DNA from: Rhodospirillales bacterium
GTDB lineage: Bacteria; Pseudomonadota; Alphaproteobacteria; BOG-932; Roseiterribacteraceae
DNA: 39,223 bases
Reading direction: 5' to 3'
NCBI GenBank assembly: GCA_028291345.1
Contig: JAQGIF010000171.1
Span: forward strand, 1 to 39,223
Positions 326 through 31,103 of this stretch are shown here, one piece after another. Within the stretch, counting starts at the first letter, position 1. Each line of letters begins with the position of its first letter. The translations under genes were made by a program, and so were the position numbers. The notes under the pieces were generated by a model. The model made no database searches. It saw only the letters and a list, made by a program, of their open reading frames with translations, and was not told the origin of the DNA.

Positions 326-805
326 TCAGGCCGAGGGCGGGCTCAAGATCTCGCCTTTTGCCGACCACAGGATCCGGGCGGTCAAAGCGCTAAGCCGCCA
401 AGCCGGGCCCTGTCGCACGGCCTCGAACACATACTGACCGCCATTGACCAGCAGGTCGCGGATACCATCCCGGGAGAATATGTCGGGATTCAGGTAGTCG
501 ACCCGGCCGGCGGCGTGATCGCCGTCCAGTTCGACCTGGAAATTGGCCAGCAGATGCTGCGTGTACTCGAGAGACGGCACACCCATAATTTCGCCGAGCC
601 ATTCAGCGATCTCATCACGTCTGCCGCGACGTCCCATGGCGCCTGTGTAGTCGATCAGCGCATCCGCCGTGAACACCGTCCGGTAGCTTGTCCAATCCCG
701 GGCATCGCAGGATCGCGCATAGGATATGAGCAGGTCCTGGAGTGCCTGCTTGTCTTCCAGGCGTTGGAGCCTTTCGTTGTCCATCTCCTGTGGCTTCGGC
801 GGCAT
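326..805 (-). CDS. SnoaL-like (NTF2-fold) protein
   Basis: This 159-residue protein looks like the SnoaL-like/NTF2 superfamily: small cone-shaped alpha+beta proteins that act as isomerases, cyclases, dehydratases or non-catalytic subunits. The N-terminal helix region (residues 11-35, LEDKQALQDLLISYARSCD) and the following FTADALIDYTGAMG segment are typical of the SnoaL_4 type. The length is normal for one domain, with no signal peptide, so a cytoplasmic location is expected. The ATG overlaps the TAA stop of the upstream TonB receptor as TAATG, which implies translational coupling. A second ATG at codon 8 has a purine-rich stretch directly against it, too close to act as an SD. The reaction cannot be read from sequence; the coupling suggests a role with the receptor's substrate. 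Confidence 0.85.
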   Translation of the reverse strand: MPPKPQEMDNERLQRLEDKQALQDLLISYARSCDARDWTSYRTVFTADALIDYTGAMGRRGRRDEIAEWLGEIMGVPSLEYTQHLLANFQVELDGDHAAGRVDYLNPDIFSRDGIRDLLVNGGQYVFEAVRQGPAWRLSALTARILWSAKGEILSPPSA

Positions 806-3609
806 TACGAAATTGGCCCGCCGTCATAGACGATCTGGACACGCCGGTTCTGCGGTTCCTTCACCCCGTCGGCGGTGGGCACCAGCGGGTCGCGCTTGCC
901 CTTGGCGACGATCTGGATTTCCGAGGCCGGAATGCCGTCTTTCTCCAGCTGGGCCGCGACCGATTCCGCACGGCGGCGGCTGAGACGCATATTATAGGCG
1001 TCCGAACCAACCGTGTCGGTATGACCGGTCACCGTCAGCTGCGTGGCCTTGGCCGGCCCAGCATTGGCGGCGGCCTGGTTCACGATCGTCACGGCCTGGG
1101 GCGTCAAATCTGACTTGTTGAAGTCGAAAAACACCAGATAGTTCTTCGGCGCGGGAGCCGGAGCCACGATCGGCGGCGGCACATAAGCGGCGGGCGCCGC
1201 TTCCTGCGTGGAGGCCGGCCCACCGAAGTCGATCGAGAGATCGACGCCGAAGGTTCGCGGCTGCATGAAGTGGCCGTCGATCGTAAATCCGGCATCGACG
1301 CCATATTCCACTTCCTGCACATCGGTCAGATTCTTGCCCCAGAGTGCGATTTTGCCGGTCGTGTTGCCGAGCGGCACGTCGACCAGCCCCACCCGCGCGT
1401 TCAACATCCAGAATCCGGCAGGATTGACAACGGACTCGAGCGCACTGGAGATTCCGCCGACGACCTCATTGCTGGAGATCTGCGTAAAGACCTTGCTGCG
1501 ATATTGTGCGTCGATCTCAGCCTGAATGTGGCCGCCCCATGAGAAATCCGCGAAGTCATATTGAACGCCGCCAGAGAAGGTGTATTCGGGGTCGAACAGC
1601 CCTTTAACCAGACCGCCGACCTGAACCTGGGTGCCCGAGATCGAGATCGTCTGCTGGTTGGTGCTGCCGTGATTGAAGCCGAAATTGGCAAAGACGCGGG
1701 CGCGTTCGATCGGGATCACGTCGAGCTCGGCCTCGGCGCCCCTTATAATCTCGTGACCGGCATTCAGGAAGTGGACCACTCCGTTGTAATACTCGATCTG
1801 CCGGTTTCGGTAGTCGGAGTAGAAGACGTCGGCGTTGAATCGAACGCGGTGATCGAAAAATTCACTTTTGACGCCGATCTCATAAGCGCGCAGATGCTCG
1901 GGGCTGAAGGGCGTCCCATGGTAGGTGCCGCCGGTGAGGTGCCCGGTCCCGACCTTGGCATAGCTCATGATGTCTGGGGTCCAGTGGTATTCCGCCAGGA
2001 CCTGCCAATCAGCGTCCGTGAAGCTGGGATTGAAGACCTGAACAGGTGGACCGGCAAGGTCGTATTCGCGGTCGTAGCGTTCGTCCCAGGTTTGCCGGAC
2101 GCCCGCCGTCAGATTCAGCGAGTCGGTTGCGTGCCAAGTCCCCTGTGCGAACAGTGCGTACGATGCATTGTCGATATAGGCGTTGTCGTTGAAATCCGTG
2201 AACCGATTGAGCGGCGGCAGGGTGTTATTGGGCAGCGAGCGCAATATGAAATAAGGATTATATTGCGTGCCCTGCTCGTCGAAGTAAAAGAAGCCTGCCT
2301 GCCAGTCGAACGACTCCATCCTGCCGATGAACTGCAATTCTTCCGAGACTTGATGCTGGTCCCGCTGCGCAAGGGTACCCTGCAAGGTGAATAGGCTTCC
2401 GCCCGGTCCCAAGCCGAATCCTGGAGGTGTGCGCAGCGTGTTGCCGTCGAATTGGCTGCCGACATTGGTCTGATGAAACTCCCGGTAGGCCAGGATGTTC
2501 TTGACCGTCAGCCAATCGTTGATGTCATAACTCGCAGTGAGACTGTTGCCCCAGATCTGCGCGTCCGTCGGACCCTGCAAGGGTTCCGATACGGCGCCCA
2601 GCCGCGTAAGGGATACTGTGTTGCCGCCGCCGAGCGCTGGCTGCAGCGAAAACAGGAGCTTTGCGAAGTCGCCGCCTGGCCCTGGCGAAAAGCCCAGAAC
2701 CTGCGTCGCCTGCTGAACAGAGGTGTCGTCCGTATAGTCGAACTTGTAGTCGAGGAGCAGGTTGTCGCCCCGGTATCGCACGGCGGCGTAGAAGGCGTCG
2801 GCGCGGTCGCCGCCGAACTCATCCGCGGCCGCGACGTCGCCGAACCGCCCCTGGGTTGCCGCGCCGTAATGGATGACGGTACCGCCGGCCAGGTTCTTCA
2901 CGTAACCGTCGGTCTGATCGTGAGCGTATGAAACGAGGACGCTGATGCCGTCGAATTCAGGAAACTCCACTCGTGTCTTTGTACGAAATCTACCTTGGTT
3001 GCCAAAGGTGAAGTCTTGTTTGCCGCCCCACTCGCCCGACGGCGTGGCGGAGATGTAGTTGATCGCGCCGCCGGTGGTGTTGCGGCCGAATAGTGTACCC
3101 TGCGGGCCGCGCAGCACTTCGATACGTTGAATGTCGGCGGCCTCGAACTGAGTACCGAGGTCGCGTCCAATATAGACACCGTCAAGATAGACGCCGATCC
3201 CAGAGTCGAGTTGAAACGAAAATTGCGGAGTGGTGATGCCGCGCAGCGTATAGACCGCGGCGTTACCCGAACCCGATTCCTCGATCGAGTAGAAATTTGG
3301 GACCAGGAAGGCAAGATCCTGGATTGTGTCGATATGCTGGTCGGTTATCTGAGCCGGCGTAAACGCGGTCACGGCGACGGGGACGTTTTGCAGTTTCTGC
3401 TCGACCTTTTGCGCCGTGACCACGATCTCTTCCAGAACTGGCCCCGATGCCGACCTGGTCTGCGCCAGCGCCGGCAATGACGAACCGGCGAGAAGCGACG
3501 CGATTGCAAAACCAGCCACCCGAGCGCGCGGCCTCCATTGCAAATGAAACGTTTGATTTTCTAGCCCGGCCGGAATTCCGGCACACGAGGTCTCCCTTAT
3601 CGAAGTCAT
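805..3609 (-). CDS. TonB-dependent receptor with C-terminal OmpA-like domain
   Basis: This is a 934-residue outer-membrane active transporter driven by TonB-ExbBD. A signal peptide is visible near residues 30-50 (VAGFAIASLLAGSSLPALAQ), followed by a TonB-box/plug entry (LEEIVVTAQK), the plug with the LRGPQGTLFGRNTTGGAINY segment, and a beta-barrel ending near RTFGVDLSIDFGG. A Pro/Ala-rich linker then leads to an OmpA-like peptidoglycan-binding domain (about 823-934) with the conserved Asp in TGHTDTVGSDAYN and Arg in LSRRRAESV. Typical receptors end at the last barrel strand, so this is an extended architecture. Both the barrel C-terminus and the OmpA domain would be periplasmic, so the topology is consistent. 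The start has GGGGAAG upstream at good spacing. It is co-transcribed with the SnoaL gene. The substrate is unknown; the context suggests a lipophilic organic compound. Confidence 0.95.
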   Translation of the reverse strand: MTSIRETSCAGIPAGLENQTFHLQWRPRARVAGFAIASLLAGSSLPALAQTRSASGPVLEEIVVTAQKVEQKLQNVPVAVTAFTPAQITDQHIDTIQDLAFLVPNFYSIEESGSGNAAVYTLRGITTPQFSFQLDSGIGVYLDGVYIGRDLGTQFEAADIQRIEVLRGPQGTLFGRNTTGGAINYISATPSGEWGGKQDFTFGNQGRFRTKTRVEFPEFDGISVLVSYAHDQTDGYVKNLAGGTVIHYGAATQGRFGDVAAADEFGGDRADAFYAAVRYRGDNLLLDYKFDYTDDTSVQQATQVLGFSPGPGGDFAKLLFSLQPALGGGNTVSLTRLGAVSEPLQGPTDAQIWGNSLTASYDINDWLTVKNILAYREFHQTNVGSQFDGNTLRTPPGFGLGPGGSLFTLQGTLAQRDQHQVSEELQFIGRMESFDWQAGFFYFDEQGTQYNPYFILRSLPNNTLPPLNRFTDFNDNAYIDNASYALFAQGTWHATDSLNLTAGVRQTWDERYDREYDLAGPPVQVFNPSFTDADWQVLAEYHWTPDIMSYAKVGTGHLTGGTYHGTPFSPEHLRAYEIGVKSEFFDHRVRFNADVFYSDYRNRQIEYYNGVVHFLNAGHEIIRGAEAELDVIPIERARVFANFGFNHGSTNQQTISISGTQVQVGGLVKGLFDPEYTFSGGVQYDFADFSWGGHIQAEIDAQYRSKVFTQISSNEVVGGISSALESVVNPAGFWMLNARVGLVDVPLGNTTGKIALWGKNLTDVQEVEYGVDAGFTIDGHFMQPRTFGVDLSIDFGGPASTQEAAPAAYVPPPIVAPAPAPKNYLVFFDFNKSDLTPQAVTIVNQAAANAGPAKATQLTVTGHTDTVGSDAYNMRLSRRRAESVAAQLEKDGIPASEIQIVAKGKRDPLVPTADGVKEPQNRRVQIVYDGGPIS

Positions 3610-3833: not shown

Positions 3834-4613
3834 TTACTGGGCCATGTATTCGCCACCGTTGATATCGAGCGTCGCGCCGCTGACCTCCCCGGCATAGTCG
3901 GAAAGCAGCATGATGATCGCATCGGCGCAGGCCTCGTCGGTCGGAATATGGCCGAGCGGAATATTCGCCGCCGTGTGCGCCTTGAGGTCCTCGATCAGCA
4001 CGCCGGTCTCGGCCGAGAGGGTTTTGAAATAGCTTTGCACGGGGTATCCCCACATATGCCCCATCACGACATTGTTCACGCGGATATTCTTGGGGCCGAG
4101 TTCAAGCGCCAGCTGCCGCGTCGTCGCCTGGAGTGCGGCCTTGGCGGCGGCATAAGCACCCTGCCCCTTCAGCGGCCGGCGGGTGACCATGCTGCTGATA
4201 TTTACCACCACGCCCTTGCCGGCCGCCTCGAAGGCCGGCAGCACCGCTTTGGTCAAATTCAGGGGGGCGAACAAGGTGACGTCGAAGATCGCACGCCAAT
4301 CGGCCAGGTCGGCCTCGGCAAACGGCACGAAACTGGCCTTGTAGGCGCTGTTGACGATCCCATCCACACGCCCGAACCGGCTGAGGGCGGCATCCACGAC
4401 GCGAGCGCAATCCTCCGGCCGCGCCAAGTCGGCAAGAACAGGAATCGCGGTGTGGCCGAGCTTGCAGATTTCGGCAGCAATTTCCTCGATCACAGGCTCT
4501 TCACAGCCTGCCAGCACCATATTGGCGCCCACCGCGGCGCCTTGGCGGCTGAGCTTGCTGCTCATGCCGCGACCGACGCCGCCGACGATGATCGTCTTGC
4601 CGGCGAGAATCAT
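3834..4613 (-). CDS. SDR family oxidoreductase (variant motifs)
   Basis: A 259-residue short-chain dehydrogenase/reductase with a Rossmann fold, expected to interconvert an alcohol and a ketone using NAD(P). The catalytic Ser lies in NISSMV and the Tyr/Lys pair in YAAAK. Two motifs are unusual. The cofactor loop reads VGGVGRGMSS instead of the classical TGxxxGxG, and NNAG is replaced by NSAY. This points to a divergent SDR subgroup rather than a dead enzyme, since Ser, Tyr and Lys are intact. AGGAGA precedes the ATG at good spacing. It is the third gene of a leftward set behind the two-domain VOC-like gene and the P450, 47 bp after the P450 stop. It may oxidise a hydroxyl installed by the P450 (inference). 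Confidence 0.9.
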   Translation of the reverse strand: MILAGKTIIVGGVGRGMSSKLSRQGAAVGANMVLAGCEEPVIEEIAAEICKLGHTAIPVLADLARPEDCARVVDAALSRFGRVDGIVNSAYKASFVPFAEADLADWRAIFDVTLFAPLNLTKAVLPAFEAAGKGVVVNISSMVTRRPLKGQGAYAAAKAALQATTRQLALELGPKNIRVNNVVMGHMWGYPVQSYFKTLSAETGVLIEDLKAHTAANIPLGHIPTDEACADAIIMLLSDYAGEVSGATLDINGGEYMAQ

Positions 4614-4660
4614 GATGCGATCTCCTAGCGGATTGAAATTGCCAACAGGTAAGACGGGTT

Positions 4661-5881
4661 CTAGCCGGTCAGCGAAATGGGAAGAGTTTCAGCGCCGCGC
4701 ATGAAGGAAAGGCCGCCGGAGATCTCGGCCTCACCGGCCACGGTCATCTGGGGGAACCGCCGGACAAACACCTGGAGCGCCTCAGCCATTTCGGCCCGCG
4801 CCAGCGCTTGCCCCAGGCAGAGATGCGTACCGTAGCTGAAGGTCAGATGACGGTTCGCGTTGGCGCGCCCGATGTCGAACCGTTCCGGATCGGGAAACAT
4901 TGCGGGATCGCGATTGGATGCGAACGAATTCAGGATCAGAGACGTGCCGACGGGCAGCACGACGCCGCCATAGGTTGCCTCCTGCATCACACGCCGCAGG
5001 AATACATGAAGCGACGGCTGCAGCCGCAGCGCCTCCTCAACCGCTCCAGACGCCAATGCGGGATCGTCGAGGAGCCTACCCCACTCCGCGCGGTTCTCCA
5101 TCAGAAGCTGGATCACCCAGCCGAACTGGTACCGCGTCGTATCGTGGCCCGCGAACAGGAAATTGACCAAGGCTCCCAGCAGTTCAGCCTCACTGAGCTG
5201 TTCCCCTTCGACCTCGGCGGCGATCATAGCCGATACAAAATCGTCCTGTGGCCGGGCGCGACGCTCCTTCACCAGTTCACGGCAATGGGCGTAAAGGCCG
5301 GTCAGCGCCGCATCGATCGTCGGCACATGGGGGACAAGCGGGAACTGGGCCAGTCGGCCGAGCTCGACTGTCCAGGCGCCGAACTGGTCCATGTCGGCCT
5401 CAGGCACGCCGATCAGGGTGCACAGAACCTCCAACGGGTAGCGGTGGGAGAAATCGGCCACGAGGTCGCAGGTTTCCTGCCCTGAGCAGCGATCGATCAG
5501 CCTGTTCGCGACCGTTTGCATCACCGGTCGCAGCCCGTTGATTCGCGGCAGGGTGAAGCCGCGCTGAAGCACCTTGCGGATGCGGTCGTGACGGGGATTC
5601 TGGATCAACGGCAGCATTCCGTTGAGTGCATATTCGACGATCAGGTCCGACCCGCCGGCCTCCCGGTAGAACTCGGTGCCGGTGCTGTCCAGCTTCGGGT
5701 CCAGCACCATCTGCTTGATGACGTCATAGGTAATGACTTCGTAGCCGCGCACTGTCTTGACGATCGGCGAGCGGACGCGGGCTTCGGCGAATACCGCGCC
5801 CGGATCGCTCAGATAGTCGGGTCCTTCGAGATCGATCCACGGCAGATCGGCGGAAGCCAAAGGGATGGGCGAGCCAGTCAT
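4661..5881 (-). CDS. cytochrome P450
   Basis: A 406-residue soluble bacterial P450, expected to be a haem monooxygenase hydroxylating an organic substrate. In this numbering the I-helix oxygen-activation motif AGHDTT is at 244-249, the ExxR motif EEALR at 282-286, and the haem-binding loop FSYGTHLCLG at 348-357, with Cys355 as the thiolate ligand. I chose the ATG at 5881 (MTGSPIPLASAD). The longer reading from 5986 overlaps the upstream gene by 40 bp and adds an Arg-rich, non-P450-like segment. No ferredoxin or ferredoxin reductase is encoded in the window, so electrons must come from partners elsewhere. It lies between the two-domain VOC-like gene and an SDR in the same orientation, which suggests hydroxylation followed by dehydrogenation. 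Confidence 0.95.
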   Translation of the reverse strand: MTGSPIPLASADLPWIDLEGPDYLSDPGAVFAEARVRSPIVKTVRGYEVITYDVIKQMVLDPKLDSTGTEFYREAGGSDLIVEYALNGMLPLIQNPRHDRIRKVLQRGFTLPRINGLRPVMQTVANRLIDRCSGQETCDLVADFSHRYPLEVLCTLIGVPEADMDQFGAWTVELGRLAQFPLVPHVPTIDAALTGLYAHCRELVKERRARPQDDFVSAMIAAEVEGEQLSEAELLGALVNFLFAGHDTTRYQFGWVIQLLMENRAEWGRLLDDPALASGAVEEALRLQPSLHVFLRRVMQEATYGGVVLPVGTSLILNSFASNRDPAMFPDPERFDIGRANANRHLTFSYGTHLCLGQALARAEMAEALQVFVRRFPQMTVAGEAEISGGLSFMRGAETLPISLTG

Positions 5882-5946
5882 GGATATCTCGGATCGGCCG
5901 CAAGGCGACGCCGGTGAATCTCGCTCCTCATCCCCAAATGCCACCC

Positions 5947-6840
5947 TTATGGATTGTCGTTGAACGCGTTGAGATCGCCCGTCCAACCCTCGTAATGTCT
6001 TGCAACGATAACTTCAATTCCACCCGTCGTCGCCGGATGGGAGATATTATTTTCACCCATCAGGTACGAACGCGGAGCCTCGCATATCAATTGCTCCCGC
6101 CCCTCGTCGCTCAGGCGACTGATATGCTCGTTGAGGTCGCTGAGCCCCTTATAAAGGAAGCCGACGCAAAGCAGGCCCTCGCCATGGGTATTCATGATGT
6201 ATTCATGGCACGCCCCTTGCGAATCCCGCTTGATGAAACCGGCATCGTCGCGCAGTTGCATCAGACCGATGGCGTGTGTTTCACCGTCCACCAGGAAATG
6301 ATGCATCTTGAATTGGCGCGCGGAATCCGTTTCTTCGGGCGTGTTGATACCCTTCAGGCCGAGAATGGCCTGCCAGATCGGCACCGATTCCGACAGGCTC
6401 TTGACCGAATAGTCGAACACATAGGGCAGCGGGTTCAGCTTCCAGAATTTCTCGGAGCCGACAATGTTCGGTCGCTTTGTCGTAAAGACGATATCCGTGC
6501 CGCTGGCATATTTGGCCGACAGGCGGGCGTCGCCAGTCGCGGGATCCACTTCGATCGGGACGCCAAGCGCGCGGATGGCGTCGACCCGCGCACCGACATC
6601 GTCGGTACGCAGAACCAACTCGGAATCGCCGGCCCGGACCTCGTGCTCCGCCTCTATCAGATCCATGTAGACGATGCCGTTGCTGAAAAAGCGCTTCCGC
6701 TTCCGCCCGTCGGGCGTGAGGTCGGTGATCGGCGCCTTTTCATTCAAAATTGCCTCCCACCGGCGGGTAGATTTCGCCCAATCGTCCACAGCAATCGTCA
6801 ATCCTACCGGCTCGACAACTCCACCAACCCCGTATGGCAT
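5947..6840 (-). CDS. two-domain VOC-like protein (paralogue A)
   Basis: This 297-residue protein has the length and internal repeat expected for two vicinal-oxygen-chelate modules, about residues 8-130 and 138-285. The usual VOC metal positions are not filled: the opening strands read VGLTIAVDD and LPYVFDYSV with no His, and the closing strand reads GGIEVIVARHYEG. It is therefore unlikely to be a standard Fe(II) extradiol dioxygenase. It is clearly paralogous to the protein at 14270-15139, sharing LTxAVDDWA, ETDSARQF, THGEG and EEGW-type tail features. The start at ATG 6840 is set by GGGGAG a few bases upstream; a GTG at 6846 is the longer alternative. It heads the VOC-P450-SDR set. The function is unknown; an isomerase, lyase or binding role is possible. 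Confidence 0.8.
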   Translation of the reverse strand: MPYGVGGVVEPVGLTIAVDDWAKSTRRWEAILNEKAPITDLTPDGRKRKRFFSNGIVYMDLIEAEHEVRAGDSELVLRTDDVGARVDAIRALGVPIEVDPATGDARLSAKYASGTDIVFTTKRPNIVGSEKFWKLNPLPYVFDYSVKSLSESVPIWQAILGLKGINTPEETDSARQFKMHHFLVDGETHAIGLMQLRDDAGFIKRDSQGACHEYIMNTHGEGLLCVGFLYKGLSDLNEHISRLSDEGREQLICEAPRSYLMGENNISHPATTGGIEVIVARHYEGWTGDLNAFNDNP

Positions 6841-7052
6841 GACCACTCCCCGATGAAGCCCGCATGAAAAGCAGGATTCACTCCTGTTGAATTAGACGTT
6901 CCCTGGGCTTTTAGCCTCTATTATTCATTCTACTCAGAATTTTATTGGTTAGATTTTGCATTCGCAAGGAAAGAGCCCCAGTAAAGACCGTGGATGATTG
7001 CCGGTATCAGGGACGGACCCCGTCGGGCACGTGGCGGGGGCCCACCGAAGCC

Positions 7053-7817
7053 TCAGCGGACCAGAATGCCGCCATCCACGGCTAGGACATGCCCGTTGAT
7101 GTACCGCGCGGCCGATGTGCAAAGCCAAAGAGCGACATCCGCCACGTCATCCGGCAACCCAATCCGGCCGGTGGGAATCGTGCCCCTCAGCTGGCTTTCC
7201 CAGGCTGGGATCGCCAGGGTGTCGGCGGTGAGCGGTGTGTCGATGATCCCGGGCGCGATGGCGTTACAGCGAATGCCGCGGGCGGCATATTCGTTGCAGA
7301 TAACCTTGGTCAGCCCGATGACCCCATGCTTGGCGGCGGTATAGGCGGGCGTGCCCGGGAAACTAACCAGGCCAGAGATCGAGGCCATGTTCACGATAGC
7401 GCCGCCACCGGATTCGAGCATCAGCGGGAGCTCATAACGCAGACAGTGAAAAACGCCGGACAGGTTGACGGCGATGATCCGGTCCCAGCGTTCGAGCGGG
7501 TAGTTGTCGGTTGCCTCGACCACCGGGCCGTCACCGATCCCGGCATTGTTGATCGCCACGTCCAGGCGGCCGAACCGCGCCCGCACCTCGCCGACCATCC
7601 GTTCGCAGTCTGAGGCGACCGCGACGTCGGCCTGGACGAAATGGGCCGTGGCCCCCGCGCCGCGCAGTGTGTTCGCGACGGCCTCGCCGCTATCGCTTTT
7701 GATATCGGCCAACAGCAGATATGCGCCACGCTCGGCGAACTTGCCGGCGATGGACCGGCCGATCCCGCTTCCCGCGCCGGTGATCAGAACCACGCGGCCC
7801 TCCAGCTCGTCGGCCAT
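7053..7817 (-). CDS. SDR family oxidoreductase
   Basis: A 254-residue classical short-chain dehydrogenase/reductase. The dinucleotide loop TGAGSGIG, NNAG, the catalytic Ser in MASISG and the YTAAK Tyr/Lys pair are all present, and the C-terminus VDGGILVR is typical of the family. The Asp in LLLADIKSD, at the end of the second strand, favours NAD over NADP. I prefer the ATG at 7817. A TTG at 7826 overlaps the TGA stop of the upstream GMC gene (TTGA) and could be used by translational coupling, adding three residues. It is the last gene of an SDR-GMC-SDR leftward set, so it probably acts on the product of the GMC flavoenzyme or a related alcohol. Confidence 0.92.
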   Translation of the reverse strand: MADELEGRVVLITGAGSGIGRSIAGKFAERGAYLLLADIKSDSGEAVANTLRGAGATAHFVQADVAVASDCERMVGEVRARFGRLDVAINNAGIGDGPVVEATDNYPLERWDRIIAVNLSGVFHCLRYELPLMLESGGGAIVNMASISGLVSFPGTPAYTAAKHGVIGLTKVICNEYAARGIRCNAIAPGIIDTPLTADTLAIPAWESQLRGTIPTGRIGLPDDVADVALWLCTSAARYINGHVLAVDGGILVR

Positions 7818-7822
7818 GGGGT

Positions 7823-9451
7823 TCAAACCGCGCCGAGCGGATGGACGTTCGACGGCGGCAACGGTGCTTTGCCCAGGATCATGTCCGAGGCTTTCTCGCC
7901 GATCATGATCGTTGCCGCGTTCGTGTTCCCGGAGGAGATGTACGGCATGATCGAGGCATCGACTACCCTCAGCCCCTCGATGCCGTGCACCTTCAGCGTC
8001 TCGTCGACAACGGCCAGCTCGTCCTGCCCCATCCGGCAGCTTCCGACCGCATGCATGTCGACCGGCGTGGTCGCGCGGACGAAGGCGTCGAACTCATCGT
8101 CGGTGTTGACGTCGGGACCGGGCGTGATCTCGACGTCGCGATACTTGTCGAAGGCGGCCTGGGCGACGACCTCCCGGGCCAAGCGGAATCCGGAGCGGAC
8201 CCTTCGGCGATCGCTTTCGGTGGCGTAGTAGTTCGGGTTAACCAGGGGCAGGTCCATCGGATTGGCCGACCGCAGGCGAACCTCGCCCCTGCTGTCCGGC
8301 CGCAGCAGCGCGCCGCGCACCATGAAGCCATGCTTGCCGACGATCTTCTGGCCATTGCCCATATAGATCGCCAGCACCATGATCAGCTTCAGGTCCGGGT
8401 CCTTGTGTTGTGCCAGTTCCGAATTGACGATGGCGACGACCTCGACCGGCGGCACGGCGAGCGGGCCCTTGCGCAGAAAGATGTATTCAAGGCCGGCGCG
8501 CAGCCCATTGAACGGGTTGTTGAAATAGCCGTAGAGCGTAATCGGCACCTTTGACGTCACCTGGATCGAGAAAGGCATGTGGTCGTGCAGGTTGAGCCCG
8601 ACGCCTTTAAGGTCGAGCACCGGTTTGATGCCGTGCTCGCGCAGGTGAGAAGGATCGCCAAGGCCCGACAGCATCAGCAGTTGCGGGGTGTTGTAGACAC
8701 CGGACGACACGATCACCTCGCGCTCCGCCATGACCTGCTCGGTGCGCCCGTCCCTGAGATATTCGACACCCGTTGCCCGCATGCCCTTGAACAGGATGCG
8801 CGTCGCATGCGCATCGGTGATGACCGTCAGGTTCGGCCGGCCCCGCGCCGGACGCAGAAAGGCATAGGCCGTGCTCATGCGTCGGCCCTTCGACACCGTC
8901 ATCTGTGTCGGCCCGAAGCCGTCCCGCTGGGCGCCATTAATGTCCTCGTTAAACGAATAGCCCGCCTGCTGGCCGGCTTCGCACCAGGCGGCCGACATGG
9001 GGTGGGTCATCGGTGAACGCGTGATCCGCAGCGGCCCGTCGCCGCCATGATACGGGTTCGCGCCGAATTCGTAGGATTCCGAACGCTTGAAATAGGGCAG
9101 CACTTCACGATAGGACCAGCCCACGTTCCCTTCGGCTGCCCACCGGTCATACTCGCTGGGAGAACCGCGATCGTAGATCAGGCCATTGATGGAGCTGGTC
9201 CCGCCCAGCACCTTTCCGCGCGGATCGTAGAGTTGGCGGTTGTTGAGATGCACCTGCGGCGTCGTGATGTACTTCCAGCAATAAAGCCCCCTTCGGAGCA
9301 TGATGAGATTGCCCGCCGGGACATGGATAAGGGGGGTACGATCGCGGCCGCCGGCCTCCAGCAAAAGGACCCGCACGGCGGGATCGGCCGACAGCCGGTC
9401 GGCCAGAACGCACCCGGCGGACCCGGCTCCCACGATGACGTAGTCGTACAT
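7823..9451 (-). CDS. GMC family FAD-dependent oxidoreductase
   Basis: A 542-residue glucose-methanol-choline oxidoreductase, a choline-dehydrogenase-like flavoenzyme that oxidises an alcohol to an aldehyde or ketone. The N-terminal ADP-binding motif is GAGSAGCVLADRL (about residues 8-20) with the FAD-contacting LLLEAGG. The GMC signature KVLGGTSSINGLIYDRG follows at about 80. The C-terminal part contains HAVGSCRMG and SGNTNAATIMIGEKA, which carry the catalytic His and Asn. Length is normal and there is no signal peptide. GGGGAGGG precedes the ATG. It starts 29 bp after the upstream SDR stop and nearly abuts the downstream SDR, so the three are very likely one transcript. The natural substrate cannot be deduced. 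Confidence 0.95.
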   Translation of the reverse strand: MYDYVIVGAGSAGCVLADRLSADPAVRVLLLEAGGRDRTPLIHVPAGNLIMLRRGLYCWKYITTPQVHLNNRQLYDPRGKVLGGTSSINGLIYDRGSPSEYDRWAAEGNVGWSYREVLPYFKRSESYEFGANPYHGGDGPLRITRSPMTHPMSAAWCEAGQQAGYSFNEDINGAQRDGFGPTQMTVSKGRRMSTAYAFLRPARGRPNLTVITDAHATRILFKGMRATGVEYLRDGRTEQVMAEREVIVSSGVYNTPQLLMLSGLGDPSHLREHGIKPVLDLKGVGLNLHDHMPFSIQVTSKVPITLYGYFNNPFNGLRAGLEYIFLRKGPLAVPPVEVVAIVNSELAQHKDPDLKLIMVLAIYMGNGQKIVGKHGFMVRGALLRPDSRGEVRLRSANPMDLPLVNPNYYATESDRRRVRSGFRLAREVVAQAAFDKYRDVEITPGPDVNTDDEFDAFVRATTPVDMHAVGSCRMGQDELAVVDETLKVHGIEGLRVVDASIMPYISSGNTNAATIMIGEKASDMILGKAPLPPSNVHPLGAV

Positions 9452-9480
9452 CCCCTACCCTCCCCTCGGAGGCCGCGACT

Positions 9481-10290
9481 TCACGGCGTTGCTTTGCTGT
9501 CCGGAACCGTTGCCCATCGAGAAATCGACCAGCCTCCGTCGATCGGAAGGGTCTGCCCGGTAATGTAGGCGGCGGCCGGACTGGTCAGAAACAGCACGGC
9601 ACCGGCTATGTCGCGTGGCGTTCCCACCCGGCGCATTGGTATCTGCGCGAAATAGGGCGCCATAGCCGCGGGATCATCGAGCATACGCGCATTGGCACGG
9701 CTGGCGGTCATTCCCGGCGCCACCGCGTTTACCCGGATATTCTGGTTGACCCACGCGATACCAAGCGTCTTGGTTGTCTGCACCAACGCGGCCTTGGCCG
9801 CGCCATAGCCGGCGATCCCGTCCCAGCCGAAGAACGATGTCATCGAGGCAATTCCGATAACGCTGGCGCCGCCCGGAAGCTTGCTGCCCGACAACAGATC
9901 CCGGCATGCCGTGGCCATCCTGTAGCCACTTGTCAGGTTGAGCCGAAGCGCTTGCTCGAAAATATCCGGGTCATATTCGTCCTGATTGGCATTGGTGAGG
10001 ATGCCACCGGCATTATTGATGAGGATGTCGAGCGCCGGCAGCGAATCCGCGATCGCCTCGATGCGCCGATCGTCGGGAAGGCGCAGCGGCAGATAGCGGT
10101 ATCCGCCGAGATCGATCCCGTAAGACGCGGGATCGTCGTGCGTGCCGGTAATGATTACCTCCGCGCCCGACTTCCGATAGGCCGCGGCGATGCCGGCGCC
10201 GATGCCGCTCGTCCCCCCGGTCACCAGCACGGTATAGCCGGTATAATCAAAATGAATGATCGGCCAGTCGGTGCCGGATGCTTGGGTCAT
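9481..10290 (-). CDS. SDR family oxidoreductase
   Basis: A 269-residue short-chain dehydrogenase/reductase with TGGTSGIG in the cofactor loop, NNAGG, the catalytic Ser in IASMTS and YGAAK for Tyr and Lys. The C-terminus carries the usual ITGQTLPIDGG strand. It is the first gene of the SDR-GMC-SDR set. Ribosome-binding signal before the ATG is weak. A perfect CGGTTC-CT-GAACCG inverted repeat sits about 24 bp upstream of the start, where an operator would overlap a promoter. The specificity is unknown; the setting suggests an alcohol/ketone step in the same pathway as the GMC enzyme. Confidence 0.92.
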   Translation of the reverse strand: MTQASGTDWPIIHFDYTGYTVLVTGGTSGIGAGIAAAYRKSGAEVIITGTHDDPASYGIDLGGYRYLPLRLPDDRRIEAIADSLPALDILINNAGGILTNANQDEYDPDIFEQALRLNLTSGYRMATACRDLLSGSKLPGGASVIGIASMTSFFGWDGIAGYGAAKAALVQTTKTLGIAWVNQNIRVNAVAPGMTASRANARMLDDPAAMAPYFAQIPMRRVGTPRDIAGAVLFLTSPAAAYITGQTLPIDGGWSISRWATVPDSKATP

Positions 10291-10412: not shown

Positions 10413-10898
10413 TTATCCACCGGTCGAATGCGCAATGCGCTCGGCCTCCTCCTTGAGTTCGATCGCGACGGTATCCAGGCCCCGTTGCACCCACACGCCG
10501 TGCCGGGAATATAGAGCCTCTGCCGTGTCGCCCAAGAATGTGTCGGTGCTGTAGTAGCGGCAACGGTTCGGCGAGAGCGCTTCGAGATGTTGGTCCCGCC
10601 GGGTCAGGTGGGGTGACGCCGCCTCCGGCGGATGCTCCCAGGCGAGATGCCGGGGCCGGTCGAAGATCCTAAAGTAGTGAGTGACGACGTCGACCGGCTC
10701 AGTCCCCTTCATCGAAGGGACCCATAGCTTAAGTTGCGTTCCCAGCGGATCGCCCAGCGGCAGGTCCGTGTCGATCTTCGGTGTGAAGCTGTTCCACCGG
10801 GCGTAATTCGCGAAGTCGACCAGCACATCCCAGGCGACAGTATCTGGCGCGTCGATCTCGATATCGATCGAGCGTATTTGCAACGGCTTGGGGCTCAT
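10413..10898 (-). CDS. SRPBCC (START-like) family protein
   Basis: A 161-residue protein resembling the SRPBCC/polyketide-cyclase-like fold, which forms a deep hydrophobic cavity for ligand binding or cyclisation and aromatisation chemistry. The opening strand IRSIDIEIDAP, the WDVLVDFANYARWNSF helix region, and a long C-terminal helix (VQRGLDTVAIELKEEAERIA) match that family. I start it at ATG 10898, where ATGA overlaps the stop of the upstream LLM gene. The longer reading from 11006 runs 108 bp into that gene and adds a low-complexity segment. Coupled translation with the LLM oxidoreductase suggests that the two handle the same compound. Whether it is an enzyme or a binding protein cannot be told. 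Confidence 0.85.
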   Translation of the reverse strand: MSPKPLQIRSIDIEIDAPDTVAWDVLVDFANYARWNSFTPKIDTDLPLGDPLGTQLKLWVPSMKGTEPVDVVTHYFRIFDRPRHLAWEHPPEAASPHLTRRDQHLEALSPNRCRYYSTDTFLGDTAEALYSRHGVWVQRGLDTVAIELKEEAERIAHSTGG

Positions 10899-11794
10899 GC
10901 AGTGTCCTTCCAGGCTGCAAGGCGATCCAGGAAGGCTTCGAACCCGCCCTCGTCCCTGCAATACATCGTGGGATAGATTTCGAGGTGGGTTGCACCCGCC
11001 GTGCACAGGGCCGGCGCCTGGGCCAGCGTGGCGTCGAGGTCGCCAAGCCCGTCCGCGCCCCGCACCGGCGGCAGCATCGTCCGGATCGCGAGCGTCGACG
11101 GATCGCGCCCGCGCGCCACCATTGCCGCCCGTATTTCGCTCACCGCGCAGCCGATCTCAGCCGGCGACAGGCCGAGCGGGATCCAGCCCTCGCACCATTC
11201 GGCGAGCCGCGCGATCCAACGACGGGTCGGCGCGCAACCGAGCCAAATCGGAATGCCGCCGCTCTGGACCGGGCGCGGATAGGAATAGACCCCTTCAAAT
11301 GCCACATGCGTACCGTGGAAAGAGGCGGGCGCGGAGCGCCACAATGCGCGGCAGGCACGGATTTGTTCTTCCAGAATGGCGCCGCGATTGTCGAACGGCA
11401 CGCCGACCGCATCATATTCCAACCTCTGCCAGCCGACGCCGAGCCCGGCATCGACCCGGCCCCGCGACAGCGCATCCAGCGTAGCCAGCTGCTTCGCGAG
11501 AAGGATCGCCGGGCGCAGCGGTGAGATCAGGATGCTGGTCGACAGGCGAATGCGCGAGGTCGCGCCCGCAACCGCTGCCATGATCGTGATCGGTTCGTAC
11601 CAGGGATAATCGAGCGGGGGCGTGAACTCGCCAAAAGGATAGGCGTCGCGAACCGCGCCCATCGCAAGATGGTCCCCGATGAAGACCTGATCGATGCCCT
11701 TATCCTCAGCCAGCCTGACCGCCTGCCCGACGGCAGCGATATCGCCGCCGAACCATTTGTGCAGGTCGAACAGGCCGATCGCCACCTTCACCAT
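10895..11794 (-). CDS. LLM class flavin-dependent oxidoreductase
   Basis: A 299-residue luciferase-like monooxygenase-family protein with a TIM barrel, using reduced FMN or F420. Recognisable parts are VKVAIGLFD at the first strand, DQVFIGDHL, the RIRLSTSILISPLRPAILLA strand-helix, and LSRGRVDAGLGVGW. I choose ATG 11794 because the paralogue at 31921-32814 starts with MAKIAIGLYG, aligning with MVKVAIGLFD here; ATG 11806 adds four residues and lacks an SD. No flavin reductase is encoded nearby, so the reduced cofactor must come from elsewhere. It is translationally coupled to the SRPBCC gene. Possible reactions are Baeyer-Villiger-type oxygenation or hydride transfer; the sequence does not decide. 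Confidence 0.9.
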   Translation of the reverse strand: MVKVAIGLFDLHKWFGGDIAAVGQAVRLAEDKGIDQVFIGDHLAMGAVRDAYPFGEFTPPLDYPWYEPITIMAAVAGATSRIRLSTSILISPLRPAILLAKQLATLDALSRGRVDAGLGVGWQRLEYDAVGVPFDNRGAILEEQIRACRALWRSAPASFHGTHVAFEGVYSYPRPVQSGGIPIWLGCAPTRRWIARLAEWCEGWIPLGLSPAEIGCAVSEIRAAMVARGRDPSTLAIRTMLPPVRGADGLGDLDATLAQAPALCTAGATHLEIYPTMYCRDEGGFEAFLDRLAAWKDTA

Positions 11795-11999
11795 GTTCCG
11801 GTCCATTCTGGTTTATGGGCCGAGCCTATGAGAATTCGCACGTTAAGTATCTTCCGGCACGACCGAGGTCCCTCCTGGATACTGACGGTCTCGCCCAGTG
11901 CAACCGGCGCGCGCGCAGTTGCCGCAAACCGTCGCTTCAGGGTAATGGCTATGCCCGCGGGCCAGCGAAGCATGAGGCGCGGCGCAAGGGAGGATGCCG
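11795..11999. promoter_or_regulatory. divergent promoter region, LLM operon and VOC gene
   Basis: About 205 bp separate the leftward LLM gene and the rightward VOC gene and must hold both promoters. Visible structure includes a GGATAC box at 11877-11882, matching boxes near the XRE gene, and GCAAC (11900-11904) paired with GTTGC (11918-11922) around a GC-repeat core. I could not assign -35/-10 elements with confidence. Confidence 0.45.
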
Positions 12000-15140: not shown

Positions 15141-17267
15141 ATGGCCCGGTTCAAGCATCTGCTGTCGCCGGGGCGCATCGGCTCGCTCCAGCTTCGCAAC
15201 CGCATCTTCATGACCCCGATGGGGTCGAACTTGGCGGACGAGGACGGGATCACGGGCGAGCGTATCCGGACCTATTACACCGAACGAGCCAAGGGGGGCG
15301 CAGCGCTGATCACCATGGGGTCGGTCTCAATCGGCTACCGAGAGGGCTCGAGCAACTGGCGGCAGGAAGCAATCTCCGACGACCGCCACATTCCCGGCAT
15401 CCGCGCGCTGGCGGATTCGGTCCATGCGCATGGCGCGAAACTGTGCGTCCAGCTGCACCATGCCGGGCTGGTGGCGATGAACGACATGTTGGACGGGCGC
15501 CCGCTCGCCACGCCGTCCATTCCGCCGGCCGGTAAGTCCGGCGACATGATGGACGCGTTCCTGGAAGACGAGTTCCACATTTTTACCGCCCCCCACGCGA
15601 AGATGGGCGCGATCAAGCATCAGGTCCTGACCGCGCAGGAGATCGAACGGCTGGTGCAGATGTACGCCGCGGCGGCGGAGCGGGCGAAGCGCGCCGGGGT
15701 AGACGCGGTCGAGATCCATGCCGGCCACGGCTATATCATCTCGTCCTTCCTGTCCCCCTATTCCAACCGACGCACCGACGAATATGGCGGATCGGTCGAG
15801 AATCGCGCCCGATTCCTGGTCGATATCGTAAAGGGCATCCGTGCCGCCGTAGGCGCCGATTTCCCGGTTTGGGCGCGAATCGATTCGGAGGAGTTCCTGG
15901 TTGACCAGGGCATCACGATCGGCGATTCCTGCAGAACGGCGCAGCTGGCCGAGGTGGCCGGACTGGATGCCATCAATGTCAGCGCCTATTCCGACATGGC
16001 GAACGGCATCGGCCATTCCGTCGCGCACGCAACCCACATTCCTGGCAAGTTCGTGCCCAATGCCACGGCGATTAAACGCGCGGTCGGCATCCCAGTGATC
16101 ACCGCCGGCCGGATCGAACTGGATCAGGCCGATCGTTACATCGCCGAGGGCCGTTTCGATTTCCTCGCCCTGGGACGCAAGCTGCTTGCCGATCCGGATC
16201 TGGCCCGGAAACTGGCGGACGGCCGGGAGGACGACATTCGCCCATGCATCTATTGTTACACCTGCATCAGCCAGATCTATTTCGGCCGCCATGTCCGCTG
16301 CGCGGTCAATCCCGAGGCAGGCTTCGAGCGCGAGCGGGAAATCCGCCCTGCGGAAACGAAGAAACGGATCGTCGTCATTGGCGGCGGCCCGGCCGGCATG
16401 GAGGCGGCGCGCCGTCTGTCGCTCAAGGGCCATTCGGTCATGCTGGTCGAGCAATCGGACCGGCTCGGCGGGACGGCGCAATTCGCATCCATCGCCTACG
16501 AGCCGAACCAGGGAATCGTTGATTGGCTGAAGCGCCAGCTCGCCCAGTCGAACGTCACGGTCAAATTGCGGACCCTCGCAACACCCGAACTGATGTGCTC
16601 GCTTAAGCCGGACGAGGTCGTCGTGGCGACCGGCGCCGTGCGCACGATGCCGGACATTCCGGGTTCAGACCGGCCGAACGTGTTCAGTGGCGACGAGATG
16701 CGCAAGCTGGTGCTGGGGCAGGATCTGGATTCGCTGGCGAACAAGGTGGATCGGCAGACGCGATGGGCGCTCGCAGCCGCCGCTATGAGCGGCGTAACCA
16801 AGGATCTCGCCCTGATCCGCTGGGCGAGCAAAAGCTGGATGCCGTTGGGCAAGCGCATCGTCATCATCGGTTCGGAGCTTGTGGCGCTGGAACTGGCGGA
16901 GTTCCTCGCCCATCGCGGGCGGACCGTGAGCGTGGTCGACGAAGTCGCCAAGTTCGGCGCCGGCATCCAGATCGTCCGCCGCTGGCGTGTGCTGCACGAG
17001 GCAAGAGAACTGGGCGTGGCGCTGCTGCCGCTGGCGCGGGATATCCGGATCGGCGAAGGGGTCGTGACATACGTCAATCCGCACGATCAGGTGCGCAGTA
17101 TTACGGCCGACCATGTGATCGTTGCCAAGGGCGCGCATGGCAATCTCGACCTGGCTGACTCTCTGAGGAGCGCGGGCTTCAGCGTCCATACAGCCGGCGA
17201 CTGCGACGGCGTCGGCTATATCGACGGCGCGATGAGTTCCGCGGCGGAAGTCGCGCAGGCGCTATAG
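15141..17267 (+). CDS. OYE/FadH-like FMN, 4Fe-4S, FAD oxidoreductase
   Basis: A 708-residue protein with the layout of 2,4-dienoyl-CoA reductase, trimethylamine dehydrogenase and BaiCD/BaiH-type enoate reductases. Residues 1-360 are an old-yellow-enzyme TIM barrel (LQLRNRIFMTPMGSN, then VEIHAGHGYIISSFLSPYSN). The 4Fe-4S cysteines lie at about 369-388 in PCIYCYTCIS with a fourth in VRCAVNP. The FAD Rossmann motif VVIGGGPAGMEAARRL is near 412. It would reduce or dehydrogenate an activated C=C bond, using NAD(P)H through FAD, the cluster and FMN. The second nucleotide-binding loop reads IIGSELVALELAEF and lacks most of the usual glycines. The ATG follows the upstream stop by 1 nt. In a steroid-like pathway this could act on an enone (inference). 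Confidence 0.92.
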   Translation: MARFKHLLSPGRIGSLQLRNRIFMTPMGSNLADEDGITGERIRTYYTERAKGGAALITMGSVSIGYREGSSNWRQEAISDDRHIPGIRALADSVHAHGAKLCVQLHHAGLVAMNDMLDGRPLATPSIPPAGKSGDMMDAFLEDEFHIFTAPHAKMGAIKHQVLTAQEIERLVQMYAAAAERAKRAGVDAVEIHAGHGYIISSFLSPYSNRRTDEYGGSVENRARFLVDIVKGIRAAVGADFPVWARIDSEEFLVDQGITIGDSCRTAQLAEVAGLDAINVSAYSDMANGIGHSVAHATHIPGKFVPNATAIKRAVGIPVITAGRIELDQADRYIAEGRFDFLALGRKLLADPDLARKLADGREDDIRPCIYCYTCISQIYFGRHVRCAVNPEAGFEREREIRPAETKKRIVVIGGGPAGMEAARRLSLKGHSVMLVEQSDRLGGTAQFASIAYEPNQGIVDWLKRQLAQSNVTVKLRTLATPELMCSLKPDEVVVATGAVRTMPDIPGSDRPNVFSGDEMRKLVLGQDLDSLANKVDRQTRWALAAAAMSGVTKDLALIRWASKSWMPLGKRIVIIGSELVALELAEFLAHRGRTVSVVDEVAKFGAGIQIVRRWRVLHEARELGVALLPLARDIRIGEGVVTYVNPHDQVRSITADHVIVAKGAHGNLDLADSLRSAGFSVHTAGDCDGVGYIDGAMSSAAEVAQAL

Positions 17268-17279
17268 GGGATCGGAAGA

Positions 17280-18745: not shown

Positions 18746-18752
18746 ACGGACG

Positions 18753-19904: not shown

Positions 19905-20018
19905 CGTCGAACGCTTTTGACGACATCGTCGTCCGTGCGGGTCGGCGGGATGTGCGCTCACCACCCGCTGGTCGGAAGACCCCGACACAGGAAGGTGGTG
20001 CTCCTGCTGGTATCCGCA

Positions 20019-21260: not shown

Positions 21261-21321
21261 AAGCCTGCGCTCCGTAATTCAGGGTTTTTAGAAATAGGCC
21301 GTATGCGTTCGCGCCGAACGG

Positions 21322-22596: not shown

Positions 22597-22601
22597 GGAT
22601 T

Positions 22602-24947: not shown

Positions 24948-27860
24948 TTATGAAGTAGGTCCTCCCGAATAGACGATCTGGACCCGCCGGTTCTGCGGCT
25001 CCCGAACCCCGTCGGCCGTCGGAACGAGAAGATCTCGTTTACCCTTGGCGACGATCGCGATCTCGCTGGCAGGAATGCCGTCCTTTTCCAACCGCGCCGC
25101 CACCGATTCCGCGCGGCGACGAGACAGGCGCATGTTGTATGCGTCCGAACCTACCGTATCGGTGTGACCGGTCACCTCAAGCTGTGTAACCTTGCCGGCG
25201 TTCTTCGCCGCCTGGTCAACGATCTCACCCGCTTGGGGAGTCAGGTCGGACTTGTTGAAGTCGAAGAACACGAGATAGCTCTTTGGAGCCGCAGTCGGAG
25301 CTTGAACCGGCGGCGCGGCATAGGTGGTTGCGGTCGTTTCAGCCGGCGCGCTATTGGCGGCGAAGCGGTATTTCAGCGAGAAGCCGAACATGCGCGGCTC
25401 GTTATAGGTAAGCGCCGTGTAGCCGAGCTGTGAATAAAGCGGAAATGCCGCCTCGACATGCGTGTTATCCAGCGCGTTTGTCATGAAGAATCTTGCATCG
25501 AGGGGGTAGCCAAAAATATTGGTCCAGTCGACACTGATATCAAGCTGATCGAATGACGGCCTGATCGGAAATATCTCCCCAGGAACATTGGTTGTATATT
25601 CGTGACTTATGAAATAATACGTCGCTGATACGGCAACATCCCCGACTGATTCGTCAAGCGGCAGATGATAAATGCCGTTTATGCTGTACTGCCATTTCGG
25701 CAAGTAAAGAAACGGCGGGTTGGCAGTGGTCGCTCCGAGCGCTACAGGATATTCGTTGTAGTGGGAATAAAGGTAGGAGGCGTGCGGCGATATCTCGAGC
25801 CCGGTCACCGGAATAATCGTCGCTTCGAACTCCCCTCCCTCAAGTTCTGCACTCGCGGCATTCTGCTCCAGCGACACCGAATGGATAGCGCCGCCCGCAT
25901 CGACCACCGTGACGGTCTTCTCGACGCGGATCGCCTTGTAGTCGGTATGGAAAATATCGGCATTGGTTCGGCCGCGAACGCCGAAAAGCGTCCAGTCGCT
26001 TTTGACACCGATTTCGACGTCGGTCACATGCTCAGGCTTGAGGCTTTCGAACTGGACCGGAACCTGCGGGTTCGTCGTACCGGGACGATAGGCGTTGCCC
26101 GACCGAACATAGATCAACGTATTAGGGTCCAACTGTTCGTCGAGGCTGAGATTCCAGCCATAAGAGCTGAAATGGGCGTTCGAACCGGCGGAACAGTTGC
26201 GGTCGAAATTGATCGTCGCGCAGTTTGTCGGCGCCCCGTCGGCCCCTCGTATGATATTGGGGCCGTTGGTGCCGCGTTCCTGCACGGATGCGAAATCCCA
26301 GGTGTAGCGATAGCCCGCGGTGAATCTGAGACCCGACACATAGTCGGAAAGGTCATAGATCCCGTGGGCGAATAACGCCTGGCTGCGGCTGGAAAGATAG
26401 AAATGATCGTAGCTCGAGCCACCAAGGGCCGTATTGATCTCGGTGGTTTGGCCCAGCGGATGATCGAACTCCAGAAAACCGCCAAGAACCCATTGCAGCT
26501 TATCGTCCAGCGACTTGCCCTGAAGCTGAATTTCCTCGGTATATTGCACGGAGTTGTCATTCCAGCCCTGATTATTGATCGGGTCACCGATGCTGAGGAT
26601 CGGAAGAAACGTCCCGGAATTCTCAGCCGATGTCAGTTGTTTGAAGATTCGTGCCGCGGCGATGTTCTTGAGTGTCAAGCCCTCGGCGATGTCCCAGGTC
26701 GCCTGGTCTGTGAACCCATAGAAATAGTCCTTGCCGATGCCGGGGGTCGATCGTCCGATAACCGTCCTGACTCCGGCAGCCTGCTGTTGCGCGAAAACCG
26801 ACCGCAAATTTGGAAAGAATGAGAACGCCCCAGCCGCGATTCCGGCTGCCGCGGTGGCAGCGGCCGTTGCCGGGTTAGACAATCCCGCGACGCCAGGGCC
26901 ATTCCCCAGGGTCAACGGGATATTCAGGCCGGGCCCTAGAGGAACGCTGCCGAACGGCTGAGCCGGATTGATGAAGGACAGAATTTTGGAAGATCCGTTC
27001 GTATCCTGCCAATATCCATCATAGATAAAATAGTTCTCAAAATCGTCCGTCGGTCTGAACGTCACACTGACACGCCAAGAGTAATTGTTATGATTGTCAT
27101 AATCCTTGCTCGTAAAAAAATCTTTCGTATATCCGTCACGTTGTTGCGATTGACCGGCGACTCTAACCAAAAGCTTATCTTGAATGACGGGAACATTGAT
27201 GGCGCCTTCAAACTCCCGATCGCTATAGTTTCCAAACGTTGCCTGGACATACCCTTCGAATTCATTCGTCGGTCTTTTCGGTTCGATCGAGATGAGACCG
27301 CCGATCGAATTCTTGCCGAAGAGAGTGCCCTGTGGCCCTTTGAGAACCTCAAGGTTGTCCAGATCGAAATAAAAGCCCTGCGACGTTCCATGCGTGACGC
27401 CATCGGCCGAGTTATAGTCGACAGTTCCTAATGGCACGTCGGCGAAATAGGCCACTGTCCCTTGGAGACCGCGTAGCCGGATTTGGCCGGAATAGGGCTC
27501 GTTGCCGTCGGAGCCGAAAGACGTATCCGTGAGCGACGGCACGTTACGCGCCAAGTCGGCGAGACGTAAGATGCGTTTTTGATCAATATCGCTCTGGGTG
27601 AATACGGTTATCGAGAGCGGCACCGCCTGGGCGCGTTCGGCGCTTCGCCGGGCCGTTACGACGATTTCTTCCAGTCCGCTTTCAGCCGAAGCCTCCGCGG
27701 TTTGCGCCACTGCCGTTCCGCCTCCGGCAAGTGCGGTGATCGCGACGCTGGCGAGGAGCGCCGTCACCGCCGATACATGCCCTCCGCGGTTGCGTAATTT
27801 CCAAAGCGCCGCCGACCCGATGCGGGTGGCATTAGTCGATGTCCTGGCACAATGATCCAT
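24948..27860 (-). CDS. TonB-dependent receptor with C-terminal OmpA-like domain
   Basis: A 970-residue outer-membrane receptor, the second fusion in the window. A signal peptide ends near residue 53 (VAITALAGGGTAVAQ), followed by GLEEIVVTARR and a plug containing LKGPQGTLFGKNSIGGLISI. The barrel ends near RMFGFSLKYRF, and a Pro/Ala linker leads to the OmpA-like domain at about 861-970, again with TGHTDTVGSDAYN and LSRRRAESV. The barrel is far less like the 805-3609 receptor than the terminal module is. GGGGAGGAG precedes the ATG with an 8-nt gap. It lies 138 bp upstream of the molybdopterin oxidoreductase in the same direction, so it may be co-transcribed. The ligand is probably an organic compound handled by the neighbours (inference). 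Confidence 0.95.
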   Translation of the reverse strand: MDHCARTSTNATRIGSAALWKLRNRGGHVSAVTALLASVAITALAGGGTAVAQTAEASAESGLEEIVVTARRSAERAQAVPLSITVFTQSDIDQKRILRLADLARNVPSLTDTSFGSDGNEPYSGQIRLRGLQGTVAYFADVPLGTVDYNSADGVTHGTSQGFYFDLDNLEVLKGPQGTLFGKNSIGGLISIEPKRPTNEFEGYVQATFGNYSDREFEGAINVPVIQDKLLVRVAGQSQQRDGYTKDFFTSKDYDNHNNYSWRVSVTFRPTDDFENYFIYDGYWQDTNGSSKILSFINPAQPFGSVPLGPGLNIPLTLGNGPGVAGLSNPATAAATAAAGIAAGAFSFFPNLRSVFAQQQAAGVRTVIGRSTPGIGKDYFYGFTDQATWDIAEGLTLKNIAAARIFKQLTSAENSGTFLPILSIGDPINNQGWNDNSVQYTEEIQLQGKSLDDKLQWVLGGFLEFDHPLGQTTEINTALGGSSYDHFYLSSRSQALFAHGIYDLSDYVSGLRFTAGYRYTWDFASVQERGTNGPNIIRGADGAPTNCATINFDRNCSAGSNAHFSSYGWNLSLDEQLDPNTLIYVRSGNAYRPGTTNPQVPVQFESLKPEHVTDVEIGVKSDWTLFGVRGRTNADIFHTDYKAIRVEKTVTVVDAGGAIHSVSLEQNAASAELEGGEFEATIIPVTGLEISPHASYLYSHYNEYPVALGATTANPPFLYLPKWQYSINGIYHLPLDESVGDVAVSATYYFISHEYTTNVPGEIFPIRPSFDQLDISVDWTNIFGYPLDARFFMTNALDNTHVEAAFPLYSQLGYTALTYNEPRMFGFSLKYRFAANSAPAETTATTYAAPPVQAPTAAPKSYLVFFDFNKSDLTPQAGEIVDQAAKNAGKVTQLEVTGHTDTVGSDAYNMRLSRRRAESVAARLEKDGIPASEIAIVAKGKRDLLVPTADGVREPQNRRVQIVYSGGPTS

Positions 27861-30980: not shown

Positions 30981-31012
30981 AAGCATGCTGCCTAGACGGT
31001 TTTCCAATATCG

Positions 31013-31028: not shown

Positions 31029-31103
31029 TCGCTCGGGACGGCATATCGTCGCCGAGGCTGGAAATCGAGACTCGATTCTGAGACAAGAGTGGGTTCAAAA
31101 AAG

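Follow-up and report, generated by a model that had tools for sequence, protein, structure and literature searches.

A handful of dedicated proteins, namely Lpp, Pal, OmpA and OmpM, are generally held responsible for attaching the outer membrane to the cell wall. OmpA and OprF consist of a small 8-strand barrel, a short linker and a C-terminal OmpA domain with an Asp/Arg pair, such that an internal beta-signal is followed by a periplasmic domain, and they occur in one or a few copies. Pal is a single, lipid-anchored protein that works with Tol, and TpgA (NCBIfam NF047726), a peptidoglycan-associated protein of OmpA type, serves as partner to a trimeric autotransporter of the outer membrane. 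In the OmpM tethers of diderm Firmicutes, the same outer-membrane protein anchors to the wall and takes up nutrients, having an N-terminal SLH wall-binding domain on a porin (PMC10628300).

Here we describe TonB-dependent receptors of bog alphaproteobacteria that resemble OmpA and OprF in their order of barrel, linker, OmpA domain and internal beta-signal, but in which the barrel is that of a 22-strand active transporter with a plug, present in ~30 copies. Their plug, TonB-box-like motif and barrel are those of ordinary TonB-dependent transporters such as FyuA (the best structural match), Fiu and FecA, which, unlike them, stop at the last strand with its beta-signal and lack a wall-binding domain. 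The tail is homologous to the domain of Pal, with which it shares the GHTD/RRA motif, though it is fused to integral barrels, and it differs from TpgA in not being a separate partner protein. OmpM differs in its SLH domain, in being a porin rather than a TonB transporter and in belonging to the Terrabacteria (PMC10628300), and it is not known to share a tail across barrel families. TonB receptors, OmpA domains and barrels that double as tethers (OmpA, OprF and OmpM; PMC10628300) are thus already known, whereas we found no description in the open-access full-text literature of any active TonB transporter that carries a peptidoglycan-binding domain, of such a fusion in ~40% of a genome's receptors, or of one tail spread over unrelated barrel families.

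Two fused receptors in one window

The window, that is, the whole stretch of DNA analysed, comprises 39,223 nucleotides of contig JAQGIF010000171.1 of a Rhodospirillales bacterium. A preliminary description, made from the letters alone, had proposed that a TonB-dependent receptor at 805-3609 is fused to an OmpA-type peptidoglycan-binding domain and that the same design recurs at 24948-27860. Both proved to be exact open reading frames on the minus strand, encoding proteins of 934 (gene 1) and 970 (gene 2) amino acids with a shared layout: a plug, a TonB-receptor barrel, a Pro/Ala linker of ~25 residues and a complete OmpA domain. Barrel, linker and OmpA domain lie in one uninterrupted frame, with no frameshift found in the translated linker of either gene.

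The N-terminus of gene 1 resembles a signal peptide in translation and is followed by a TonB-box-like motif, EEIVVTAQ (residues 60-67; 3409..3432, minus strand), of which E60 and V64 are invariant among 24 fused paralogues; TonB genes exist in the genome. The Plug domain (PF07715) covers residues 73-182 (3064..3393, minus strand), and the beta-barrel spans about residues 190-796 (1222..3042, minus strand), its last strand being the beta-signal strand PRTFGVDLSIDF and its Pfam match, TonB_dep_Rec (PF00593), extending over residues 320-761 (E 6.6e-28). Members of this receptor family usually end at the last barrel strand; gene 1 continues past it through a Pro/Ala linker (residues 797-822; 1144..1221, minus strand) into an OmpA-like peptidoglycan-binding domain (residues 827-922; 844..1131, minus strand). 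This domain matched PF00691 over model positions 1-98 of 98 (E 2.4e-20, 73.2 bits against a curated cut-off of 27.2), and phmmer linked it to E. coli OmpA and Pal.

The predicted structure bore out this architecture. An AlphaFold2 model of gene 1, computed from 55 aligned proteins of the window and the loci, was confident for the plug and barrel, with strands of high pLDDT up to residue 796, and disordered at residues 800-830 (pLDDT < 50), in agreement with the linker read from the sequence. When this model was compared to known structures in Foldseek, FyuA (4epa) ranked at the top (E 3e-38), with Fiu and other TonB-dependent transporters also among the leading matches. The tail was modelled weakly in the full-length prediction because the tails are too alike; modelled alone with diverse OmpA domains, it reached a moderate pLDDT of 78 and matched the OmpA C-terminal domain, YfiB and Pal. 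The C-terminus of ordinary TonB-dependent receptors is on the periplasmic side, and so the added OmpA domain would sit in the periplasm, where OmpA domains work.

In gene 2, Pfam identified a Plug at residues 78-188 (27297..27629, minus strand) and the same tail as in gene 1, with an OmpA domain at residues 865-958 (24987..25268, minus strand; E 4e-19). Its barrel was not reached by PF00593 and was recognized by a paralogue profile, which covers residues 70-846 of the 980-residue frame. Neither a small 8-strand barrel (OmpA_membrane or OMP_b-brl) nor an SLH domain was matched by Pfam among the window genes. Densely packed enzyme genes surround both receptors (3834-10290, 10895-11806, 15141-24809 and 29274-36571), including short-chain dehydrogenases, luciferase-like monooxygenases, a P450, GMC and molybdopterin oxidoreductases, an aldo/keto reductase and a sulfotransferase, a set that looks like one for the breakdown of a terpenoid or steroid-like compound.

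The conserved peptidoglycan-binding Asp and Arg expected from the preliminary description were found in both genes. D271 and R286 of A. baumannii OmpA are ligands of diaminopimelate (PMC6572160), and their counterparts in gene 1 are Asp865, within the motif GHTD (1015..1017, minus strand), and Arg880 (970..972, minus strand), 15 residues apart as in the A. baumannii protein; gene 2 retains the pair as D901 and R916. An alignment of 24 fused proteins shows no variation at either position, and the pair is intact in all 67 distinct tails with a readable motif, the lone tail without it being a frameshifted, decaying copy. The binding function of the domain therefore appears to be under selection. 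Judging from homology, the tail most likely binds the wall non-covalently, like OmpA and Pal, which would pin the transporter.

Occurrence of the tail in the genus and beyond

The source genome (5.63 Mb in 401 contigs, 3.9% estimated contamination) contains 39 OmpA-domain and 64 Plug places. Fused receptor frames number 27, set against the 64 plug-bearing receptors, and three of these frames are truncated where a contig ends; in the loci read, at least 29 receptors were tail-less. In a sister species (G001), with 45 Plugs, frame length points to at least 19 frames with both domains, while two genomes of the sister genus each hold a single fusion, of 882 aa (in G003, among 47 Plugs) and 914 aa (in G004). 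Throughout 84 fused frames, overlapping loci included, the linker between the barrel and OmpA profiles spans 21-28 residues. Given that this genome has 27 fusions, that two further metagenome-assembled genomes from the genus have many and that a 3-contig sister-genus genome has one, the pattern is neither due to chance nor, as the preliminary description had argued from its recurrence, a chimera of one locus.

The domain is not confined to TonB receptors. In the source genome an OmpA domain of the receptor-tail type also ends an autotransporter, a PagL-type barrel and a small OmpA-type barrel, and it stands N-terminal on a BBP2 porin. The autotransporter beta-domain with a C-terminal tail was found in two species (L054:735-3449 in the source genome and L084:2404-5319 in bog_932, both plus strand), the PagL-type lipid A deacylase barrel with a C-terminal OmpA domain in the source genome (L056:2904-3821) and the sister species (L226:1474-2376), both on the minus strand, and the BBP2 (OmpL-like) porin, with the OmpA domain preceding the barrel, likewise in both (L055:1-1464, minus strand; L221:1633-3354, plus strand). 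A 390-aa protein of the source genome (L058) joins a small OmpA-type (OMP_b-brl) barrel to the tail domain. The domain is thus of use to outer-membrane barrels at large, and the fusions belong to a genus-wide expansion in bog bacteria that comprises ~30 transporters and a few unrelated outer-membrane proteins.

Some copies of the tail are interrupted, one (L042) by an in-frame TAG between linker and domain and two (L050 and L057) by frameshifts. Thus, the tail is decaying in some copies and is not indispensable to each receptor. The TAG of L042 (3198-3200, plus strand) is single and the frame beyond it otherwise intact, and it may reflect ongoing tail loss, readthrough or a sequence error. Tandem arrays of at least three fused receptors occur at L074:1727-13471 and L033:550-9711 (both plus strand), and two intact genes of L074 are separated by the degenerate remains of a barrel end and tail.

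A scan of named genomes found fused relatives only in bog_932, in 'Alphaproteobacteria BOG_genome_mining.73' and on one contig labelled Acidobacteria; the remaining matches were OmpA proteins of 320-430 aa or separate adjoining genes, and apparent fusions in Rhizomicrobium and REEB230 were rejected as the latter. The Acidobacteria contig, from a MAG named 'Acidobacteria bacterium', carries a fused receptor at L075:4656-7709 (plus strand) with a tail of the bog alphaproteobacterial type, and so its label or bin is probably wrong.

We also surveyed samples of the class (385 genomes from 173 families and 276 genera) and the phylum (299 genomes), scoring the best 6-8 candidates per genome in a way that favours this tail type, such that rare fusions to other OmpA types may escape. 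Among the matches listed, no receptor with this tail was found outside the family, and the search of open-access papers for earlier accounts had come up empty as well, which counts against the proviso of the preliminary description that such a fusion might be common and described already. In the class sample the same tail type sits mostly on frames of 230-570 aa, and among the matches listed frames above 850 aa are confined to this genus and to a single one in each genome of the sister genus. Three long frames that the phylum sample listed beyond the genus (G246, G326 and G507) and a 1276-aa frame (G018) were not TonB receptors. The same holds for two long proteins of another alphaproteobacterial family that end in an OmpA domain, of 2066 aa (L271:403-6600, minus strand) and 1510 aa (L272:418-4947, minus strand). 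In a plasmid search, two of 675 matching records spanned 80% of the query, and the best 15 places all stopped at residue 795, the end of the barrel. In the samples searched, the tail on receptors is restricted to one clade.

Divergence of barrels and tails

Among the fused genes of the source genome, barrel identity ranges from 14 to 75% (median 27%) and tail identity from 72 to 97% (median 86%), with a correlation between the two of 0.10. At the DNA level, identity between fused genes sets in at the linker and is back to chance level (0.25) past the stop codon, giving the shared segment sharp boundaries. In three pairs with barrels 48%, 33% and 17% identical, the tail DNA is 96%, 95% and 92% identical, respectively, with runs of over 80 identical bases, and pairs with 15-33% identical barrels have tail DNA that is 90-95% identical.

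Strong purifying selection explains part of the tails' amino-acid identity. At fourfold-degenerate sites paralogous tails agree at 0.52, where codon usage would predict 0.40 and orthologous barrels of the two species agree at 0.49; with the best tail paralogue, agreement is as high as 0.92. Of 43 genes, 35 have their nearest tail, but only 17 their nearest barrel, within the same genome. Mean fourfold tail similarity did not differ between paralogues (0.53) and orthologues (0.57; p = 0.32), indicating that the tails have been homogenised in part, and recently only in certain pairs. From these patterns, tail DNA seems to have been copied from gene to gene, and we infer gene conversion (ectopic recombination) as the probable process.

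A tree of 117 receptor barrels, from which the tail was left out, requires at least 24 changes in tail presence (gains or losses), 20 of them forced by well-supported branches, with the reservations that long branches make some deep placements unsure and that L042 was scored tail-less though a tail follows its stop codon. The tail has thus been gained or lost repeatedly, and a large sub-clade of 38 rows includes 30 with the tail. One pair of near-orthologues, L158 of the source genome and L077 of bog_932, shows 77% DNA identity as far as the last strand, after which L158 ends (...GFTLDLKY-stop) whereas L077 goes on via the linker into the tail. No remnant of a tail was seen behind L158, and the pair is compatible with either gain or loss.

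Probable wall anchoring and its alternatives

We consider it probable that the tail is a transferable peptidoglycan anchor, carried by many barrels and partly homogenised by recombination, which tethers transporters to the wall. Peptidoglycan binding and tethering are read here from homology. The transporter's C-terminus would exit the barrel into the periplasm and continue through the flexible Pro/Ala linker into the OmpA/Pal-type domain, whose binding of peptidoglycan diaminopimelate would tether the transporter to the wall. As a transferable module, the tail would have been grafted repeatedly onto different receptor barrels and four non-TonB barrel families, its DNA being partly homogenised by gene conversion while the barrels diverged, presumably for different substrates. 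The outer membrane would then be pinned to the wall via many of its own transporters, besides the usual dedicated tethers, and possible benefits are envelope strength under a large transporter load or a limit on transporter movement. For the more extensive claim, that recombination has copied an anchoring module throughout the outer-membrane proteome, from TonB receptors to autotransporter, PagL, BBP2 and OmpA barrels, with many transporters anchoring the membrane and the tail evolving in concert beside variable barrels, we put the chances at about even.

That most carriers, 27 of them in the source genome, are TonB-dependent receptors would suit a tail that aids TonB-driven transport, either by fixing the distance to TonB/ExbBD or by bracing the receptor against the pull on its plug, in line with the preliminary description's idea that anchoring could keep the transporter near the TonB machinery or stabilise it. 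We regard such a role as unlikely, given that more than half of the source genome's receptors do without the tail and that the number of TonB_C matches in this genome equals that of a sister genus with one fusion. Moreover, the autotransporter, PagL-type, BBP2-type (with its N-terminal domain) and small OmpA-type barrels bear the same domain and do not use TonB, and therefore a general wall anchor fits better than a TonB-specific role. As a separate observation, two to three TonB C-terminal domain matches stand in a row at G001:C42:8454-9224 and G000:C3:3365-4049, three of them within one 396-aa frame in G001, which suggests a TonB protein with repeated receptor-binding domains.

Alternatively, the tail could serve chiefly as a handle for recombination, a 3' end kept constant for barrel swapping and tandem amplification, with wall binding secondary or inherited. 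The near-identical, sharp-edged tail DNA of genes with distant barrels, the tandem arrays of at least three fused genes (L033 and L074) and the degenerate tail copy between tandem genes all speak for it, but diaminopimelate ligands kept in 67 of 67 tails make it a rather improbable main function; a handle role beside wall anchoring may exist and is compatible with it. Somewhat more doubtful still is a history devoid of active spreading, in which an old fused ancestor was duplicated and its tail kept by purifying selection and lost repeatedly; the constrained amino acids of the tail, the sub-clade with 30 of 38 rows tailed and the one fusion in the sister genus agree with it. Against it stand synonymous sites of paralogous tails above the codon-usage expectation, paralogous tails about as similar as between-species orthologues though their barrels split long before, 90-95% identical, sharp-edged tail DNA next to 15-33% identical barrels, and the presence of the domain on other barrel families. 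An artefact of assembly or binning might be suspected in fragmented genus genomes, two of which are known metagenome bins, and with the contamination estimated for the source genome, yet three genus genomes agree, this one 39-kb contig holds two fusions, orthologous fusions recur between species and the 3-contig sister-genus genome has one, and we deem it very improbable.

If the tail acts as a wall anchor, nearly half of one organism's active transporters appear, from their sequences, to be wall-bound, and if many transporters are tethered by their tails, a large part of the outer membrane may be held to the wall by way of them. The family offers a natural test of whether TonB-dependent transporters need diffusion, of how they are pulled on and of how membrane and wall share load. 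It further provides a clear example of a single domain that has spread across unrelated outer-membrane barrels and evolves partly in concert, and it can be used to study how barrel proteins acquire periplasmic modules and how BAM treats an internal beta-signal in a large receptor barrel.
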